Shown here one piece after another: positions 6,272 to 41,580 of a DNA stretch of 43,617 bases. The notes below the pieces were generated by a model. That model saw only the letters and a list, made by a program, of their open reading frames with translations. It was not told the origin of the DNA and did no database searches. The first letter of the stretch is position 1; every line of letters starts with the position of its first letter. The position numbers were made by a program, and so were the translations under genes. Source of the stretch: a virus; the IMG/VR virus record IMGVR_UViG_3300037258_000560, positions 1 through 43,617 of that record. One strand, given 5' to 3'.

Positions 6272-6800
6272 AGGACGCCGGCCGCTTCCCACTGCGGTCA
6301 AGAAGCTCCGCGGAAATCCTGGCAAGCGACCGCTCAATGAGCTCGAGCCCAAGCCCTCGCTGGGCCTTCCAGAGATGCCCGCTTGGATGCCCGAGGCTGC
6401 GGTCGAGAAATGGCACTCGATCTCGAGGGAGCTCGAGGCCATGGGCGTGCTCGCCAAGATCGACGGCGAAGCGCTGGCCTGCCTGTGCGTCTCCTGGGCG
6501 CGCTGGGTCGAAGCTCAGGCGGAAATCACGAAGCGCGGATTGCTCATCGTCGAACCGATTCATAAGTGGGATCGAAAAAAGAAAAAGAACGTGAAGGTGG
6601 GAACGCGGGTCACCGGGAAAAATCCAGCCATCGCCGTCGCTCAGGCTGAACTTAAAAATATTCTCAGGATTGAAGTGGAATTCGGACTCACCCCGGCCTC
6701 GCGATCGAAGCTGAGCATCGCCGCGCCGCGCATCGCCATCGAGCAGGACCAGTTCGATAAATATGCCGATCGGCTGGGTGAGATAAATCGGGTCAATTGA
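6264..6800 (+). CDS. terS: Terminase small subunit, P27 family
   Basis: A 178-residue DNA-recognition subunit of the packaging motor. The P27-family signature is clear: GRGRRPLPTAVKKLRGNPGKRP at the N-terminus, MPAWMPEAAVEKWHSISREL, then a helical oligomerisation region and LTPASRSKLSIA near the end. It would bind phage DNA and load the large subunit. The large subunit follows immediately, with a very short overlap. Confidence 0.9.
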   Translation: MGRGRRPLPTAVKKLRGNPGKRPLNELEPKPSLGLPEMPAWMPEAAVEKWHSISRELEAMGVLAKIDGEALACLCVSWARWVEAQAEITKRGLLIVEPIHKWDRKKKKNVKVGTRVTGKNPAIAVAQAELKNILRIEVEFGLTPASRSKLSIAAPRIAIEQDQFDKYADRLGEINRVN

Positions 6801-32897: not shown

Positions 32898-33024
32898 TTT
32901 CTCTTTTCGGAGGCGGGGTTGGGCTTGGCGGCTTGCCGCGATTTTCGTCCCGCCTGATTGGAGGAGTCGGAGCAGGCGGCGGTGGCCCTTCCTTTGGCTG
33001 TTGCGGTTTCTGATCGTCGCTCAC
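32881..33024 (-). CDS. Small Pro-rich protein
   Basis: A 47-residue protein whose GTG start overlaps the stop of the upstream gene on this strand (GTGA). It is Pro- and Lys/Arg-rich (EGPPPPAPTPPIRRDENRG) and probably disordered. Its last codons overlap the end of the convergent SLATT-like gene by 17 bases. Confidence 0.5.
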   Translation of the reverse strand: MSDDQKPQQPKEGPPPPAPTPPIRRDENRGKPPSPTPPPKREITKSL

Positions 33025-33797
33025 AGTCTCGAGTCCTTCAGTCGCTCGGCGATTTTGTCGGCAAAGGGCTGAGCGAGCTGCCCAGCGCTCGGCGCGTAGG
33101 CGTTGTACCAAACGGCCTGCCGAATTGTGTCCGTATGCTCGAAGACTCGCTTGCCCGAGGAGTCGGTGAGCCAGTAGTGGATCTTCGCCGTCTCTCTGCC
33201 GGTTCCCATGCCGACGATCATTCGTTTCGCACGGTTGCCCGGGCGCCACTCGAGAATCTCGCCCGAGAGCGTATAAACCGGACCAACGGCCGAAGGCGCA
33301 GCGTTCTCTACGTCGAATTTCTTTCCATCTTTGATGCGCAGCTCGACGATGGTTTGGGCCTGCATCTGCCCCGCGTCGTAAGGCCACTGCGCGCCCTCAG
33401 CCACCGCGAAAGTTCCAACCACGATGGTCGGCCTGCCTTGAGCGAATGCGCCCGCAGAAACGCTCAGGAACGCGATCAACGCCATCACTAGAGCCGCGAT
33501 CGCCGCCCCGCAGCTCCCGCAGAACTTCACGCCGGCCGCCGAGTACTTTCCGCATTGGGAGCAAAGCGCCGGCGGCGCCATGGGCGCTTGGCGTTCGACG
33601 ATTATTTGACTCGCGGAATCCTGAGTGCAGGCCCACACGAACGCACCGATCCAGCCAAGGACCGTCCAGCCGGCCAGAAGGTTCAGTGCGAAAATTGCTC
33701 CGGAGCTCGTCTTCTTTCGGCTGAAGGCGACCGTCGCGGGCAAGAAATAGAGAATCAGCCCGACAATGACAAGAATGAGCACTTTGGCGATCGTCAT
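33021..33797 (-). CDS. Superinfection-immunity domain + zinc ribbon + DUF4410-like protein
   Basis: A 258-residue protein. Residues 1-62 match the phage superinfection immunity family (T4 Imm type): LILVIVGLILYFLPATVAFS, then GAIFALNLLAGWTVLGWIGA and FVWAC. Imm blocks DNA entry of related phages. A zinc ribbon follows (CSQCGKYSAAGVKFCGSCG), then a hydrophobic signal-like segment (MALIAFLSVSAGAFAQG, residues about 105-121), and a DUF4410-like domain (YTLSGEILEWRPGNRAKRMI, VGMGTGRETAKIHYWLTD). A strong GGGGAGGA site precedes ATG 33797. An internal in-frame ATG at 33485 could also start a separate exported protein. It faces away from the attP and is a likely lysogenic accessory gene. Confidence 0.7.
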   Translation of the reverse strand: MTIAKVLILVIVGLILYFLPATVAFSRKKTSSGAIFALNLLAGWTVLGWIGAFVWACTQDSASQIIVERQAPMAPPALCSQCGKYSAAGVKFCGSCGAAIAALVMALIAFLSVSAGAFAQGRPTIVVGTFAVAEGAQWPYDAGQMQAQTIVELRIKDGKKFDVENAAPSAVGPVYTLSGEILEWRPGNRAKRMIVGMGTGRETAKIHYWLTDSSGKRVFEHTDTIRQAVWYNAYAPSAGQLAQPFADKIAERLKDSRL

Positions 33798-36870: not shown

Positions 36871-36981
36871 ATGAGCGACGTGAATTGCGCCATGGTGGCA
36901 GGAGCGTTGAATGTGCTCGCGTTTGTCACGCTCGTGGCTCTTGTTCTATGGATCGTGAGATGGGTATCGGGGTATTTGTGA
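36871..36981 (+). CDS. Very small membrane protein
   Basis: A 36-residue frame, ATG 36871 to TGA 36979-36981, with one membrane helix (VLAFVTLVALVLWIV at about residues 14-28). It overlaps the next GTG by four bases, which supports real translation. Confidence 0.5.
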   Translation: MSDVNCAMVAGALNVLAFVTLVALVLWIVRWVSGYL

Positions 36982-37487
36982 GCGGCGATCTGATCAGCCT
37001 GAGCCAGGCCGCGCGGGAGCTGGCAGTCAAACGGCAAACGCTGCGCCAGTGGCTCATCGACGCCGGCTACCGATTGCCGCAGGTGGAACGCGGCTCGAAG
37101 TTCCTGATCGACGAGGCAGTCGTTCGGCGCGTAATTGAAGCGAGGTTGGTTGCAAAAATTCCTGAGGAGGGAAACGCAATGAAGACGTGGAGACAAGGAG
37201 ATGTTCTGTTCAAAGAGGTATCGGGGTTTCCGCACAGTAAGCGAACCCGAAGGGCCACGGGTCACATTCTCGAAGGCGAGGCTACCGGGCACATTCACAG
37301 GCTCGAAGACCTCGCCGCGGCCGAGGTGCTCGAGATCGGGGACGGACTTTTCGTTAACGTCAGCGCCGAAGGCGGCGTGTCGATCATTCACGAGGAGCAT
37401 CATCCGATCGTTCTACCGGCCGGACGCTACGAAGTGGTCCGCCAGCGCGAATACGCTCCGGACGAAATCCGCAACGTAATCGACTGA
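36978..37487 (+). CDS. HTH protein fused to an HEEH/QREY-domain protein
   Basis: A 169-residue protein. Residues 5-60 (LISLSQAARELAVKRQTLRQ, WLIDAGY) are a helix-turn-helix. Residues 68-169 form a domain with GHILEGEATGHIHRLED, then IHEEHHPIVLPAGRYEVVRQ and REYAPDEIRNVID, a module often found beside DUF6745-type genes in phages and high-GC bacteria. ATG 37179 inside the gene has its own strong GAGGAGG site (37164-37170), so a 102-residue second product is likely. The gene directly precedes the duplicated DUF6745 pair, and its last bases belong to the duplicated unit. Confidence 0.6.
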   Translation: MSGDLISLSQAARELAVKRQTLRQWLIDAGYRLPQVERGSKFLIDEAVVRRVIEARLVAKIPEEGNAMKTWRQGDVLFKEVSGFPHSKRTRRATGHILEGEATGHIHRLEDLAAAEVLEIGDGLFVNVSAEGGVSIIHEEHHPIVLPAGRYEVVRQREYAPDEIRNVID

Positions 37488-37488
37488 C

Positions 37489-38790
37489 ATGGCCGAGATC
37501 TGCACACAAGCGCTCGAAATCATCGAGCGCCTCAAAAAACGCCCTGAGCGCCTCGATAAGGCCAAGGCCGAGCGAGCGCTCCGCGAGCATTTCGAAGCGC
37601 TCGGGTTAAAACCCCTCCGCGTCCGCTGGGTTGCGGACGCGGAGCAAGGCTACGCCGTGGCGAGGAGCGCGGCGAGGAGCGCGGCGTGGAGCGCGGCGGA
37701 GAGCGCGGCGGAGAGCGCGGCGTGGAGCGCGGCGGAGAGCTCGGCGGAGAGCTCGGCGTGGAGCGTGGCGAGGAGCGCGGCGAGGAGCGCGGCGTGGAGC
37801 GCGGCGGAGAGCGCGGCGTGGAGCGCGGCGGAGAGCGCGGCGTGGAGCGCGGCGGAGAGCGCGGCGGAGAGCTCGGCGTGGAGCGCGGCGAGGAGCGCGG
37901 CGTGGAGCGTGGCGTGGAGCGTGGCGAGGAGCGCGGCGAGGAGCGTGGCGGAGGGCGCGGCGGAGAGAGCGGCGGAGAGAGCGGCGTGGAGCGCGGCGGA
38001 GGGCGCGGCGAGGAGCGCGGCGAGGAGCGCGGCGGAGGGCGCGGCGAGGAGAGCGGCGAGGAGCGCGGCGGAGAGCGCGGCGGAGAGCTCGGCGAGGAGA
38101 GCGGCGAGGAGCGCGGCGGAGAGAGCGGCGTTGAGCGTGGCGAGCGTGGCGAGCGTGGCGTGGAGCGTGGCGGAGAACGCGGCGGAGAGCGTGGCGGAGA
38201 ACGCGGCGGAGAGCGTGGCGTGGATCGTGGCGAGGAGCGCGGCGATTGATAAGTACATTGGAATTTGGCTGCCGTTTGTAGACGCCCACGAGGCAGGGCT
38301 CTGGGCGTTCTGGGTTCTCAGGGATGAAGTGATTGCCGTCGCGCGGCCGGTTATACGCATCGAGAACGATCGGCTGCACTGCGACTATGCCCCGGCCGTC
38401 TCCTGGCCTGACGGGGCTCGCTATTGGTTCTGGAAGGGCGTTCAGGTGCCCCGGGAAGTGATCGAGCAGCCCGAGCTGATCACCGCCGAACGCGCACTCA
38501 CCGAGCGGAACGCGGAAATCAGGCGGGTGATGATCGAGCGCATGGGCGTGGAGCGCTTCATCGTCGAGGGCCATGCCAGGCTCGTCCACGCCCATGAAAT
38601 GGGGGAGTTGTTCTCGATCGGCGTGTTCGGCGATCCCGACGGCTGCGTGAACGCGGTCCGGGTTACCTGCTCCTCCACAGGCCGAAAGTATTTCCTGCGT
38701 GTTCCGCCTTCGATTAAACGAGCCGATGACGCCGTAGCGTGGACCTTCGGATTCGAGACGGCCAATTACCGGCCGGTGGTGGAGAGCTGA
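37489..38790 (+). CDS. DUF6745-like protein with A-x-S-A repeat tract, copy 1
   Basis: A 433-residue protein in three parts. Residues 1-58 are helical (CTQALEIIERLKKRPERLDK). Residues 59-252 hold about 49 tetrapeptides of the form A-[R/W/E]-S-A. The C-terminal 180 residues match DUF6745: AGLWAFWVLRDEVIAVARPV, NDRLHCDYAPAVSWPDGARY, WFWKGVQVP, NAEIRRVMIERMG and YFLRVPPSIKRADDAVAWTF. The tract should be a long Ala-rich helix. The function is unknown. Outside the tract it differs from copy 2 by only three bases. Confidence 0.75.
   Translation: MAEICTQALEIIERLKKRPERLDKAKAERALREHFEALGLKPLRVRWVADAEQGYAVARSAARSAAWSAAESAAESAAWSAAESSAESSAWSVARSAARSAAWSAAESAAWSAAESAAWSAAESAAESSAWSAARSAAWSVAWSVARSAARSVAEGAAERAAERAAWSAAEGAARSAARSAAEGAARRAARSAAESAAESSARRAARSAAERAALSVASVASVAWSVAENAAESVAENAAESVAWIVARSAAIDKYIGIWLPFVDAHEAGLWAFWVLRDEVIAVARPVIRIENDRLHCDYAPAVSWPDGARYWFWKGVQVPREVIEQPELITAERALTERNAEIRRVMIERMGVERFIVEGHARLVHAHEMGELFSIGVFGDPDGCVNAVRVTCSSTGRKYFLRVPPSIKRADDAVAWTFGFETANYRPVVES
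37663..38247 (+). repeat. 12-bp minisatellite, copy 1 (about 49 units)
   Basis: Units such as GCGAGGAGCGCG, GCGTGGAGCGCG and GCGGAGAGCGCG, all in frame except for two 9-base units (ASV ASV). The second codon switches between AGG, TGG and GAG. All six frames stay open across the tract, producing large false reading frames on both strands. Confidence 0.9.
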
Positions 38791-38810
38791 TGAGCGCGGC
38801 GGTCGACTGA
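38790..38810 (+). pseudogene. Duplication scar: stub of the downstream gene
   Basis: A six-codon frame (MSAAVD, stop) whose first four codons and the first base of the fifth are identical to the start of the gene at 40023. It is what remains of that gene's 5' end at the inner junction of the tandem duplication. Confidence 0.8.
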
Positions 38811-38811
38811 C

Positions 38812-40023
38812 ATGGCCGAGATCTGCACACAAGCGCTCGAAATCATCGAGCGCCTCAAAAAACGCCCTGAGCACCTCGATAAGGCCAAGGCCGAGCGAGC
38901 GCTCCGCGAGCATTTCGAAGCGCTCGGGTTAAAACCCCTCCGCGTCCGCTGGGTTGCGGACGCGGAGCAAGGCTACGCCGTGGCGAGGAGCGCGGCGGAG
39001 AGAGCGGCGAGGAGCGCGGCGGAGAGCGCGGCGTGGAGAGCGGCGTTGATCGTGGCGAGGAGCGCGGCGTTCAGCGCGGCGAGGAGCGCGGCGTGGAGCG
39101 TGGCGTGGAACCTGGCGAGGAGCGCGGCGAGGAGCGCGGCGTGGAGCGTGGCGGAGATAGCGGCGGAGAGAGCGGCGAGGAGCGCGGCGTGGAGCGCGGC
39201 GGAGAGAGCGGCGGAGAGAGCGGCGTGGAACGTGGCGACGGGCGCGGCGTGGAACGTGGCGTGGAGCGCGGCGGAGAGAGCGGCGAGGAGCGCGGTGTGG
39301 AGCGCGGCGTGGAACGTGGCGTGGAGCGCGGCGGGGAGCGCGGCGGAGAGCGCGGCGGAGAGCGCGGCGTGGATCGTGGCGAGGAGCGTGGCGTGGAACG
39401 TGGCGTGGAGCGCTGCGAGGAGCGCGGCGGAGAGCGCGGCGAGGAGCGCGGCGAGGAGCGTGGCGGAGAGCGCGGCGATTGATATATACATTGGAATTTG
39501 GCTGCCGTTTGTAGACGCCCACGAGGCAGGGCTCTGGGCGTTCTGGGTTCTCAGGGATGAAGTGATTGCCGTCGCGCGGCCGGTTATACGCATCGAGAAC
39601 GATCGGCTGCACTGCGACTATGCCCCGGCCGTCTCCTGGCCTGACGGGGCTCGCTATTGGTTCTGGAAGGGCGTTCAGGTGCCCCGGGAAGTGATCGAGC
39701 AGCCCGAGCTGATCACCGCCGAACGCGCACTCACCGAGCGGAACGCGGAAATCAGGCGGGTGATGATCGAGCGCATGGGCGTGGAGCGCTTCATCGTCGA
39801 GGGCCATGCCAGGCTCGTCCACGCCCATGAAATGGGGGAGTTGTTCTCGATCGGCGTGTTCGGCGATCCCGACGGCTGCGTGAACGCGGTCCGGGTTACC
39901 TGCTCCTCCACAGGCCGAAAGTATTTCCTGCGTGTTCCGCCTTCGATTAAACGAGCCGATGACGCCGTAGCGTGGACCTTCGGATTCGAGACGGCCAATT
40001 ACCGGCCGGTGGTGGAGAGCTGA
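38812..40023 (+). CDS. DUF6745-like protein with A-x-S-A repeat tract, copy 2
   Basis: A 403-residue paralogue of the preceding gene. The N-terminal part differs from copy 1 at one base (CGC to CAC, R to H, at 38873), and the DUF6745 part only by AAG to ATA (K to I) at 39484-39486, directly after the tract. The tract has about 41 units in a different order, with rarer residues (L, F, T, G, N, I) at the variable positions. The stop overlaps the next ATG by one base. Confidence 0.75.
   Translation: MAEICTQALEIIERLKKRPEHLDKAKAERALREHFEALGLKPLRVRWVADAEQGYAVARSAAERAARSAAESAAWRAALIVARSAAFSAARSAAWSVAWNLARSAARSAAWSVAEIAAERAARSAAWSAAERAAERAAWNVATGAAWNVAWSAAERAARSAVWSAAWNVAWSAAGSAAESAAESAAWIVARSVAWNVAWSAARSAAESAARSAARSVAESAAIDIYIGIWLPFVDAHEAGLWAFWVLRDEVIAVARPVIRIENDRLHCDYAPAVSWPDGARYWFWKGVQVPREVIEQPELITAERALTERNAEIRRVMIERMGVERFIVEGHARLVHAHEMGELFSIGVFGDPDGCVNAVRVTCSSTGRKYFLRVPPSIKRADDAVAWTFGFETANYRPVVES
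38986..39477 (+). repeat. 12-bp minisatellite, copy 2 (about 41 units)
   Basis: The same A-x-S-A coding units as copy 1, but with a different order and more variants such as AWNV, ALIV, AFSA and ATGA. The order of units cannot be aligned simply to copy 1 at either end. Confidence 0.9.
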
Positions 40024-40349
40024 TGAGCGCGGCGGTACAGGCGGGGCTTTTCGATCAGCCGGCGCCGGAGTTTGCGCGGGCGCGGCGAACCGATCCGAAG
40101 ACCAGCAAAGCGGCGGCGCGAACTGTTCCAGTGGTGGATCTCGAAGCGCGCGTGCTCGCGGCGCTGCGATCGAACGGGGGAATGACCACGCGCGAGCTCG
40201 CGGCCCTGCTGAATGTCGAGCTGGTTTCGGTGTCTCCGCGGATGCGTCCGCTGGTTGAGAAGGGTTTGGTGGTCGATTCCGGCGAGCGCCGATCGGGACC
40301 GGGCCGAAGGTCGAAAGCAATTGTGTGGCGGGCGCGAGGTGCCGCGTGA
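40023..40349 (+). CDS. Winged-helix DNA-binding protein
   Basis: A 108-residue protein. FARARRTDPKTSKAAAR leads to RVLAALRSNGGMTTRELAAL and VELVSVSPRMRPLVEKGLVV, a MarR-like winged helix common in phage early regions. ATG 40023 overlaps the stop of copy 2. Probably a regulator or replication accessory. Confidence 0.7.
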   Translation: MSAAVQAGLFDQPAPEFARARRTDPKTSKAAARTVPVVDLEARVLAALRSNGGMTTRELAALLNVELVSVSPRMRPLVEKGLVVDSGERRSGPGRRSKAIVWRARGAA

Positions 40350-40447
40350 ATTTGCCGCTGATCATCGCGAAGATTCTGGCGACCACGATCACGCTGGTGA
40401 TGGTTTCGGTCGCGGTTTACGAATTCCTGAAAGGGCTAAGCGAATGA
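40346..40447 (+). CDS. Very small membrane protein
   Basis: A 33-residue frame from GTG 40346 (overlapping the previous stop) to TGA 40445-40447, which itself overlaps the initiator ATG. One hydrophobic helix spans about residues 3-24 (LPLIIAKILATTITLVMVSV). The double coupling supports translation. Confidence 0.5.
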   Translation: MNLPLIIAKILATTITLVMVSVAVYEFLKGLSE

Positions 40448-41580
40448 GGAGCGGGAACACGGGGCTGTACTCGGGGCTTTTCACGGAAGAGCATCGCGCG
40501 CGGATGGGCGAGGCGGTCTGGCTTTTTGGGTGGCTGGTCGACCGGCAGACGCGCTCGAACGGGCTGGTGCTGGGCGGCGCGCCAGTGACCTACGAGGACA
40601 TCGAGCGCGACCGCGGATTTCCGGTGCGGCGGCTGCGGCGATGGATGGCGCGGCTGGTCACCGAAGGCTACGTCGAGCTCGCCTACCTCAACGGAAAAAA
40701 GCTGCGCATCCGGGTGTGCAATCCGAAGAAATTCGATGGCCTGCAGCGCTCGCTTCCAATGAAGGAATCTCGACCAAAAATGGACGGTCAGACCGTCCAA
40801 AAACGGTCGATCACCCCTAGTTCTAGTCCGTCCACTTTTGGTTCGGACGTGACCAAAAATGGACGGTCCAAGCAGAGTAGAAAAGAGAGTAAGAGTAAAC
40901 CATCCTCAAGCATTAGAGATTTTCTTCCGAGCGTTGCACCGAGCCAGCCCGCGACCGAGCACCTGAACCTCTGTGTAAGAACCTGGCAAAAGTTTCGGGA
41001 GATGCGCAATGCGATCGGGAAGCCGCTGACCGAGCAGGGAGCGGATTCGATCCTGGAGAGGCTCGCGCTGTTCCAGACCCAGGGGCATTCACCCGAAGAG
41101 ATATTGCAGGAATCGATTCGCAAAAATTATCCGGATGTGTACGCGCCGAGGAGCGAGAAGCATGAGCAATCACAGCAGAGTTTCAAAGAGCGAGAATTTA
41201 GCCGCAGCCGAGAAAACATCGCGCGAGCGCTTTTCAGTGGTTTTGGGAGTGTGGCTGACCCGCTTCGCGGAGCACTATCTGCAGCCGGTGACGAAGACCT
41301 CGGCCGACTGCTACCGGGAAATTCTGGGGCATCTTTCGCCCGGGCAGATCGATCGGGCGTGCCGCCGGGCGATGGAGACGCAAGATTTTATTCCGAAGGC
41401 AGCCACGATTTTGCGGATCCACGAGGAGTTCGAGGACGCGTGGTCGACGCCGTCGACGTTTGCGAAGTACGACGAGACGCCGATGAGCGAGAGCGATCGC
41501 GAGGCGATCAAGGCGGAGCTGGCGGGAGTGGCGAAGAAACTGAGCATTGTGCCCGGCGCGAAGCCGTCGCGGCCGGTTGA
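40444..41580 (+). CDS. Replication initiator, lambda O-like
   Basis: A 378-residue frame. Residues 1-100 (FTEEHRARMGEAVWLFGWLV, APVTYEDIERDRGFPVRRLR, RWMARLVTEGYVELAYL) form a winged-helix domain of the phage initiator type. Residues 105-160 are a low-complexity linker, and the DNA for it holds the iteron cluster. Residues 165-240 form a helical domain ending near KNYPDVYAPRSEKHEQSQQ. Beyond 41162 the frame overlaps the next gene for 419 bases, and the sequence there no longer looks like protein. The true end may be earlier or may reflect a lost stop. It would bind the origin and recruit the host helicase through a loader. Confidence 0.75.
   Translation: MRSGNTGLYSGLFTEEHRARMGEAVWLFGWLVDRQTRSNGLVLGGAPVTYEDIERDRGFPVRRLRRWMARLVTEGYVELAYLNGKKLRIRVCNPKKFDGLQRSLPMKESRPKMDGQTVQKRSITPSSSPSTFGSDVTKNGRSKQSRKESKSKPSSSIRDFLPSVAPSQPATEHLNLCVRTWQKFREMRNAIGKPLTEQGADSILERLALFQTQGHSPEEILQESIRKNYPDVYAPRSEKHEQSQQSFKEREFSRSRENIARALFSGFGSVADPLRGALSAAGDEDLGRLLPGNSGASFARADRSGVPPGDGDARFYSEGSHDFADPRGVRGRVVDAVDVCEVRRDADERERSRGDQGGAGGSGEETEHCARREAVAAG
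40772..40868 (+). repeat. Replication origin iterons inside the initiator gene
   Basis: GACCAAAAATGGACGGTC occurs at 40772-40789 and, identical over all 18 bases, at 40851-40868. An inverted copy with one mismatch lies at 40828-40842, and the dyad GACCGTCCAAAAACGGTC at 40791-40808 is a related fourth element. An A+G-rich stretch (40870-40922) follows at once, matching the lambda plan of four 18-bp iterons and an adjacent easily melted region within gene O. Confidence 0.8.

Follow-up and report, generated by a model that had tools for sequence, protein, structure and literature searches.

A tandem pair of phage DUF6745 genes with near-identical flanks and different coding repeat tracts

How do two adjacent genes remain almost identical at both ends while the repeat tract between these ends differs, and what might the differing part do? 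The question is raised by genes A and B of the 43,617-base IMG/VR virus record IMGVR_UViG_3300037258_000560, which was analyzed over its whole length and is referred to here as the window. The window encodes portal, capsid and tape-measure genes as well as an integrase and a superinfection-immunity protein, and on the basis of these genes it represents a temperate phage. The label phage, given in a first-pass annotation made from the sequence alone, is thus upheld by the structural genes and the integrase.

The gene pair and its tracts

Both open reading frames (ORFs) are intact and match the Pfam family PF20530, DUF6745 (E = 3e-33 and 3.8e-32; 115.3 and 111.7 bits for A and B, gathering score 27 bits). 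The Pfam entry describes the domain only and lists its function as unknown; A and B are clear members (E about 1e-33). In their common plan, an N-terminal motif is followed by a 12-bp coding array and then by the DUF6745 domain at the C-terminus. The 5' flanks (183 bp, from 37480 and 38803 to the tract) differ by one mismatch (37550 G / 38873 A), and the 3' flanks (565 bp, from 38239 and 39472) by two adjacent mismatches (38252-3 AG / 39485-6 TA), which amounts to 3 bases in about 748.

Between these flanks, Tandem Repeats Finder (TRF) detected 49.4 copies of the 12-bp unit in tract A and 41.3 copies in tract B. One codon toggles among AGG, TGG and GAG, while the Ala codons are GCG in 154 of 155 cases. 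The longest exact run common to both tracts measures 39 bp, compared to a median of 36 bp after shuffling of the B units (P = 0.40). The order of units that A and B have in common is therefore not above chance, and no common blocks are visible that would make the tracts rearranged copies of each other. Within tract A, internal duplications of 58 and 54 bp exceed 95% of shuffles (48 bp). The first-pass annotation had described near-identical flanks around tracts of about 49 and 41 units in different order, with a variable codon for Arg, Trp or Glu, and the measurements agree with it in each of these respects.

The duplicated unit spans 1323 bp (37480-38802). At the A/B junction, ATGAGCGCGGCGGTCGACTGA (ATG-AGC-GCG-GCG-GTC-GAC-TGA, MSAAVD*), the opening five codons of the gene after B (MSAAVQAG...) are joined to the last bases of V, which precedes A, and the two sides share just one base (~1 nt microhomology). 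Such a fusion identifies the pair as an in situ tandem duplication with an essentially non-homologous join. The tracts may have been rewritten after the duplication, or the event may have joined two genomes whose tracts already differed.

The same junction bears on a trivial origin of the pair, in which the assembler would have joined two strain alleles in tandem. The sequence is indeed an IMG/VR contig with identical flanks longer than typical short reads, yet the unique fusion of the downstream gene start and the V end would not result from merging alleles, and tract variation was seen independently in other phages. A further tandem DUF6745 pair (locus L147, 5053-6626) also speaks against such an artefact, though its 1574 bp, including the tract, recur without any difference at an offset of 1581 bp, and it may be recent or itself artefactual. 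Taken together, we regard an assembly error as highly improbable. Two adjoining DUF6745 genes were also observed in Pseudonocardia humida (L024), with linkers that are diverged and poor in tract. An exact flank-pattern search of viral contigs detected no close relatives of the window.

Tract turnover and codon variation across the family

Scans of viral and genome collections yielded 168 DUF6745 ORFs in 165 loci. A tract of period 4 is present in 86 of these ORFs and one of period 3 or 6 in 10, a few of them in actinobacterial contigs. A coding array with units of 9 or 12 bp occupies one and the same position in most of the phage DUF6745 proteins found, while the actinobacterial chromosomal set is mostly without tract. 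The combination of DUF6745 and tract is thus not peculiar to the phage of the window, as most phage members have a tract, with different unit types. Besides A-[RWE]-S-A in the window, the lineages use S-Q-L-x, [WRG]-[DA]-S-V, [RGW]-[DG]-Q-L, A-T-[YRD]-[DA], S-A-V-[YRGD] and the three-residue unit A-[RWQLM]-[DA]. Array length ranges from about 10 to 74 units across the family, with some arrays cut by contig ends. Genes A and B fit the group that we define here by a period-4 or period-3 array between the N-terminal motif and DUF6745 and by one to two toggling codons. A tblastn search with the tract alone against phages gave no match.

The clearest comparison of tract and flank outside the window comes from two phage loci (L125 and L126) that are identical at 560 of 561 domain bases and 988 of 1000 upstream bases, whereas their tracts, read by eye, consist of about 19 and 24 units that are ordered differently. 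No pair with 65-88% domain identity had unit order in common above chance, and with L125/L126 this extends to relatives at 65-100%. Codons that are fixed within an array can also differ throughout it: at 84% domain identity, the constant Ser is AGC in one array and TCG in the other (L099/L100), and in another pair the fixed codons are exchanged across the array (GCG-ACC vs GCC-ACG, L006/L105). These pairs, together with A and B, support the earlier proposal that the tract changes much faster than its flanks. Three phages that were sampled twice have identical tracts (L118/L119, L121/L122, L174/L176), which leads us to conclude from the sequences compared that the tract is stable in the short term and rewritten over longer times. 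Nocardia farcinica NCTC11134 carries the same DUF6745 tract on two replicons (L183, L184), with one copy apparently frame-shifted. Further viral scans with four loci (L118, L160, L125 and L141) returned no further near-identical pair with different tracts, and among mycobacterial strain-level pairs too few carry tracts. An apparently decayed tetrapeptide tract in a mycobacterial genome (L215) would fit the expectation if the repeat needs ongoing turnover.

Within each array, the non-toggling codons are nearly invariant, also synonymously, and one to two codons alternate between a few residues (W/R/G/E, Y/R/G/D or D/A/G). In 68 arrays with 2071 units, 39 of 4142 fixed codons deviated synonymously and 120 nonsynonymously, and toggling residues with redundant codons used a second synonymous codon in 55 of 3598 cases. 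Since unit counts would overstate independence, we based the count, over 75 arrays, on distinct variants that reach 8% or more of the units. These common variants comprise 241 nonsynonymous and 13 synonymous changes, while 26.9% synonymous changes were expected from the codons used (binomial P about 1e-19, a value that is indicative and not exact because the arrays are phylogenetically related). Nearly all nonsynonymous variants (230 of 241) fall in the two toggling codons. Other coding arrays of the same loci had 20 synonymous variants out of 119 (Fisher P = 6e-4 compared to the DUF6745 arrays). Further, the same residue classes are reached via different codons, W/R/G/E as xGG/GAG and Y/R/G/D as xxC, and the fixed Ser codon is AGC, TCG, TCT or TCC depending on the lineage. 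Residue classes that converge while codons differ point to selection at the protein level. Together with the ratio of 241 to 13, this supports selection that acts on the protein and favors different amino acids at fixed positions.

The codon data also weigh on two explanations in which the heterogeneity has no function in the protein. The array could be an element acting as DNA, such as iterons, a recombination hotspot or a packaging or replication signal, with the protein sequence as a by-product. Direct repeats upstream of an O-like/DnaD-like replication gene and lineage-specific units would be in line with iterons. However, the phase stays a multiple of three in the arrays read (units of 9 or 12 bp), hardly any common variant leaves the amino acid unchanged, and a DNA-level role is disfavored because amino acids converge between lineages while codons do not; we consider it very unlikely. 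Alternatively, selection could act merely against perfect repeats and thereby prevent collapse of the array by recombination, so that heterogeneity would exist without a protein function. It is generally known that heterogeneous units would slow slippage. Yet synonymous changes would serve equally well, and these make up only 13 of 254 common variants; nor were arrays rich in synonymous heterogeneity seen. We therefore give this explanation a slim chance at most.

Partner gene V and a candidate binding surface

Gene V, located directly 5' of A in the window, encodes a protein with the signature RQGDVLF..GEATGHIH..HEEH..I.LPAG.YEVVRQREY.P.EIRNVID, for which no Pfam, NCBIfam or PDB relative was found. 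Within the ORF that ends in V, a GAGGAGG ribosome-binding site precedes an ATG at 37179; V could start alone at this ATG or possibly be fused to a helix-turn-helix (HTH) segment. Of 53 phage loci with sufficient DNA on that side, 42 have V upstream of DUF6745, and V is present in 78 of 80 actinobacterial loci. It is also found nearby in cyanophages whose DUF6745 protein has no tract. This adjacency is a pattern found here and not a published criterion. Judged by its recurrence, V and DUF6745 constitute a conserved two-gene module across phages and Actinobacteria. Among solved structures, none was convincing for DUF6745 or V. The first-pass annotation knew of no described role, and the literature searched likewise contained none for DUF6745 and no account of the variable tract or of V as a partner; searches on DUF7666, phage tetrapeptide repeats and gp174 of Ma-LMM01 found nothing. 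The Ma-LMM01-type cyanophages had been considered as pairs with and without tract and were rejected, as the extra length is an inserted DUF1822 gene with no tract.

For gene B and the L126 protein, the AlphaFold models are good in the N-terminal motif and in DUF6745, and they show helix at low confidence in the tract. The tract had been predicted to form one long single helix. In B, helix is predicted over residues 51-128 and 178-238, with values of the predicted local distance difference test (pLDDT) below 50 over residues 109-188. In a relative with xxSV units, the tract pLDDT is about 33-53. A single long helix over the tract is possible according to these models. In other lineages Gly is common at the toggling position, which fits a long helix poorly and argues against one structure for all lineages. 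The L126 model had no PDB fold match below E = 0.001, and its viral fold matches were DUF6745 members and uncharacterized fragments.

We propose, with a confidence somewhat short of even, that the tract forms a variable intracellular binding surface on a fixed V-DUF6745 module and is diversified by turnover of the coding minisatellite under selection. The proposal builds on the anatomy of the genes, their pairing with V, the different rates of tract and flank and the surplus of nonsynonymous variants at fixed positions, all of which the data show. A and B would be early-region phage proteins acting together with the neighboring V. The repetitive scaffold would join the N-terminal motif to DUF6745, with fixed residues (A..S.A in the window; S-V, Q-L, Q-V, A-T or A-V elsewhere) keeping the backbone regular and one to two positions per unit limited to few kinds of side chain (aromatic, Arg, acidic, Gly/Ala). 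Slippage and unequal recombination of the 12-bp minisatellite would expand, delete and homogenize units, and selection would keep units that differ at exposed positions. As an outcome, related phages would differ in the whole of a long binding surface and retain the same functional domains. The variable positions may bind a partner inside the cell, possibly a fast-changing molecule of the host or of a rival phage. This binding role is inferred from the restricted residue alphabet and from two precedents, fungal NOD-like receptors (NLRs) and PRDM9. By analogy with both, the tract is a coding minisatellite whose turnover is rapid and concerted and in which selection favors different residues at fixed positions. 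A decoy or an immunity function, the other roles offered in the first-pass annotation, would be hypothetical.

Another route to variable phage proteins is provided by diversity-generating retroelements, which place hypervariable residues on a conserved scaffold. The window differs from these systems, as it has no reverse transcriptase (no RVT_1 match in the record) and its variation lies in tandem units at fixed codons and is not adenine-targeted. Fungal NLR repeats (WD, ANK and TPR repeats of het-d/het-e/het-r) are near-identical coding repeats with length polymorphism and concerted evolution, whose amino-acid variation at few fixed positions is thought to form a binding surface (PMC4986451). 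The phage arrays are alike in their near-identical repeats and in the concentration of variation at fixed positions, here as a nonsynonymous excess that falls short of a full codon-model test. In contrast, fungal units are whole structural motifs that accompany NOD and effector domains, while the phage units of 3-4 residues accompany DUF6745. No NOD (NACHT/NB-ARC) or effector domain was found in A and B, in which DUF6745 is the only Pfam match above the cut-off. The zinc-finger coding minisatellite of PRDM9 varies in copy number, and its unit diversity is mostly nonsynonymous at the contact codons -1, 3 and 6 (PMC3890296). It resembles the phage arrays as a coding minisatellite with nonsynonymous diversity at fixed codons and differs in that its products are animal DNA-binding zinc fingers with a known target, whereas the phage DUF6745 proteins have no zinc finger.

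Several points count against a binding surface. Among them are the low confidence of the tract models and the frequent Gly at the toggling position in other lineages. The tracts of twice-sampled phages indicate that turnover is not extreme, and the relatedness of the arrays tempers the statistics. Residue order at site 1 showed no autocorrelation and none of the higher-order periodicity that a solenoid or coiled coil could bring about (lags 1-24, pooled arrays), so order may not matter. Moreover, metagenome arrays are biased against long internal repeats, as short-read assembly breaks inside the tract. Block duplications were clear in 19 of 64 arrays (P < 0.05) and absent from others, but they are selected against in assembly.

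The main rival is a spacer or condensate linker defined only by its mix of aromatic, Arg, acidic and small residues, either of the sticker-and-spacer type or helical, in which order and exact identity would be free and scrambling neutral. A site-1 order indistinguishable from random, in statistics biased by assembly, would be in agreement with such a linker, as would the wide range of array lengths, an alphabet class that is conserved when order is not, and the low AlphaFold confidence of the tract. Free identity, however, predicts AAG, CAG, TCG and GTG in the xGG arrays, in which 94.5% of 1246 units are GGG, TGG, AGG, CGG or GAG. Heterogeneity at one to two fixed positions almost without synonymous variants also goes beyond what neutral scrambling alone would produce. 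On balance we consider the linker unlikely, while taking it more seriously than any other alternative.

A stronger version of the binding surface would be a widespread phage barcode protein. Units of 3 or 4 residues with a four-class side-chain alphabet, which diversifying selection keeps aperiodic and replaces as a whole, would form a code-like surface on the V-DUF6745 module that tells self from rival phages or recognizes host factors and is possibly portable to other domains such as DUF7666. We regard this version as doubtful. DUF7666-like genes (PF24703) of two further phages (L154 and L110; 24.4 and 26.5 bits, cut-off 27) bear a comparable variable array of Ala/Trp or Gly/Tyr/Asp/Ser, and since their domain is unrelated to DUF6745, these sequences suggest that the array could be a portable module. 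Comparable variable arrays in genes near DUF6745 were observed at L154 2254-2486, L110 8355-8664 and L118/L119 9224-9549.

If the binding surface is real, coding minisatellites with the smallest possible units (3-4 residues) would let phages generate diversity with no dedicated enzyme, and selection would be so strong that it purges almost all synonymous changes from the common variants. The array is carried by many phage lineages, and the two-gene module is also kept by bacteria, which offers a testable entry to the function of the domain. Metagenomics is affected as well, as several viral contigs in the collection terminate inside such tracts (L100, L103, L105, L107, L114, L121, L131-L135 and others).

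Gene layout around the pair

Genes A and B sit between excisionase/HTH genes and the O-like/DnaD-like replication gene; this downstream ORF assigns them to the early region. Coordinates are collected in the table.

Table. Coordinates of genes A and B, their parts and adjoining genes in the window
Feature	Position	Strand	Basis
HTH_17-like N-terminal half and V as C-terminal half, one ORF	36885..37487	+	ORF, profile matches
V partner gene	37179..37487	+	conserved ~102 aa, PHROG 27831
Gene A, DUF6745 protein, 433 aa	37489..38790	+	ORF, Pfam
Tract A, ~49 units of 12 bp, A-[R/W/E]-S-A	37659..38245	+	TRF
DUF6745 domain of gene A	38281..38781	+	
Duplication scar MSAAVD*	38790..38810	+	junction sequence
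Gene B, DUF6745 protein, 403 aa	38812..40023	+	ORF, Pfam
Tract B, ~41 units of 12 bp, A-[R/W/E]-S-A	38982..39477	+	TRF
DUF6745 domain of gene B	39517..40014	+	
Next gene, winged HTH; start overlaps stop of B; donor of scar codons	40023..40349	+	
Replication initiation O-like / DnaD-like helicase loader family ORF; first listed start overlaps preceding gene	40213..41580	+	

A search of the window for an ERF recombinase found none. At another locus (L161), a DUF6745 gene without tract is directly followed by a small ORF (6584-6778) that contains [WRG]-S-S-L repeats. The superinfection immunity protein of the window (PF14373), which also has a DUF4410 match, is encoded beside the integrase (33021-33797, minus strand).

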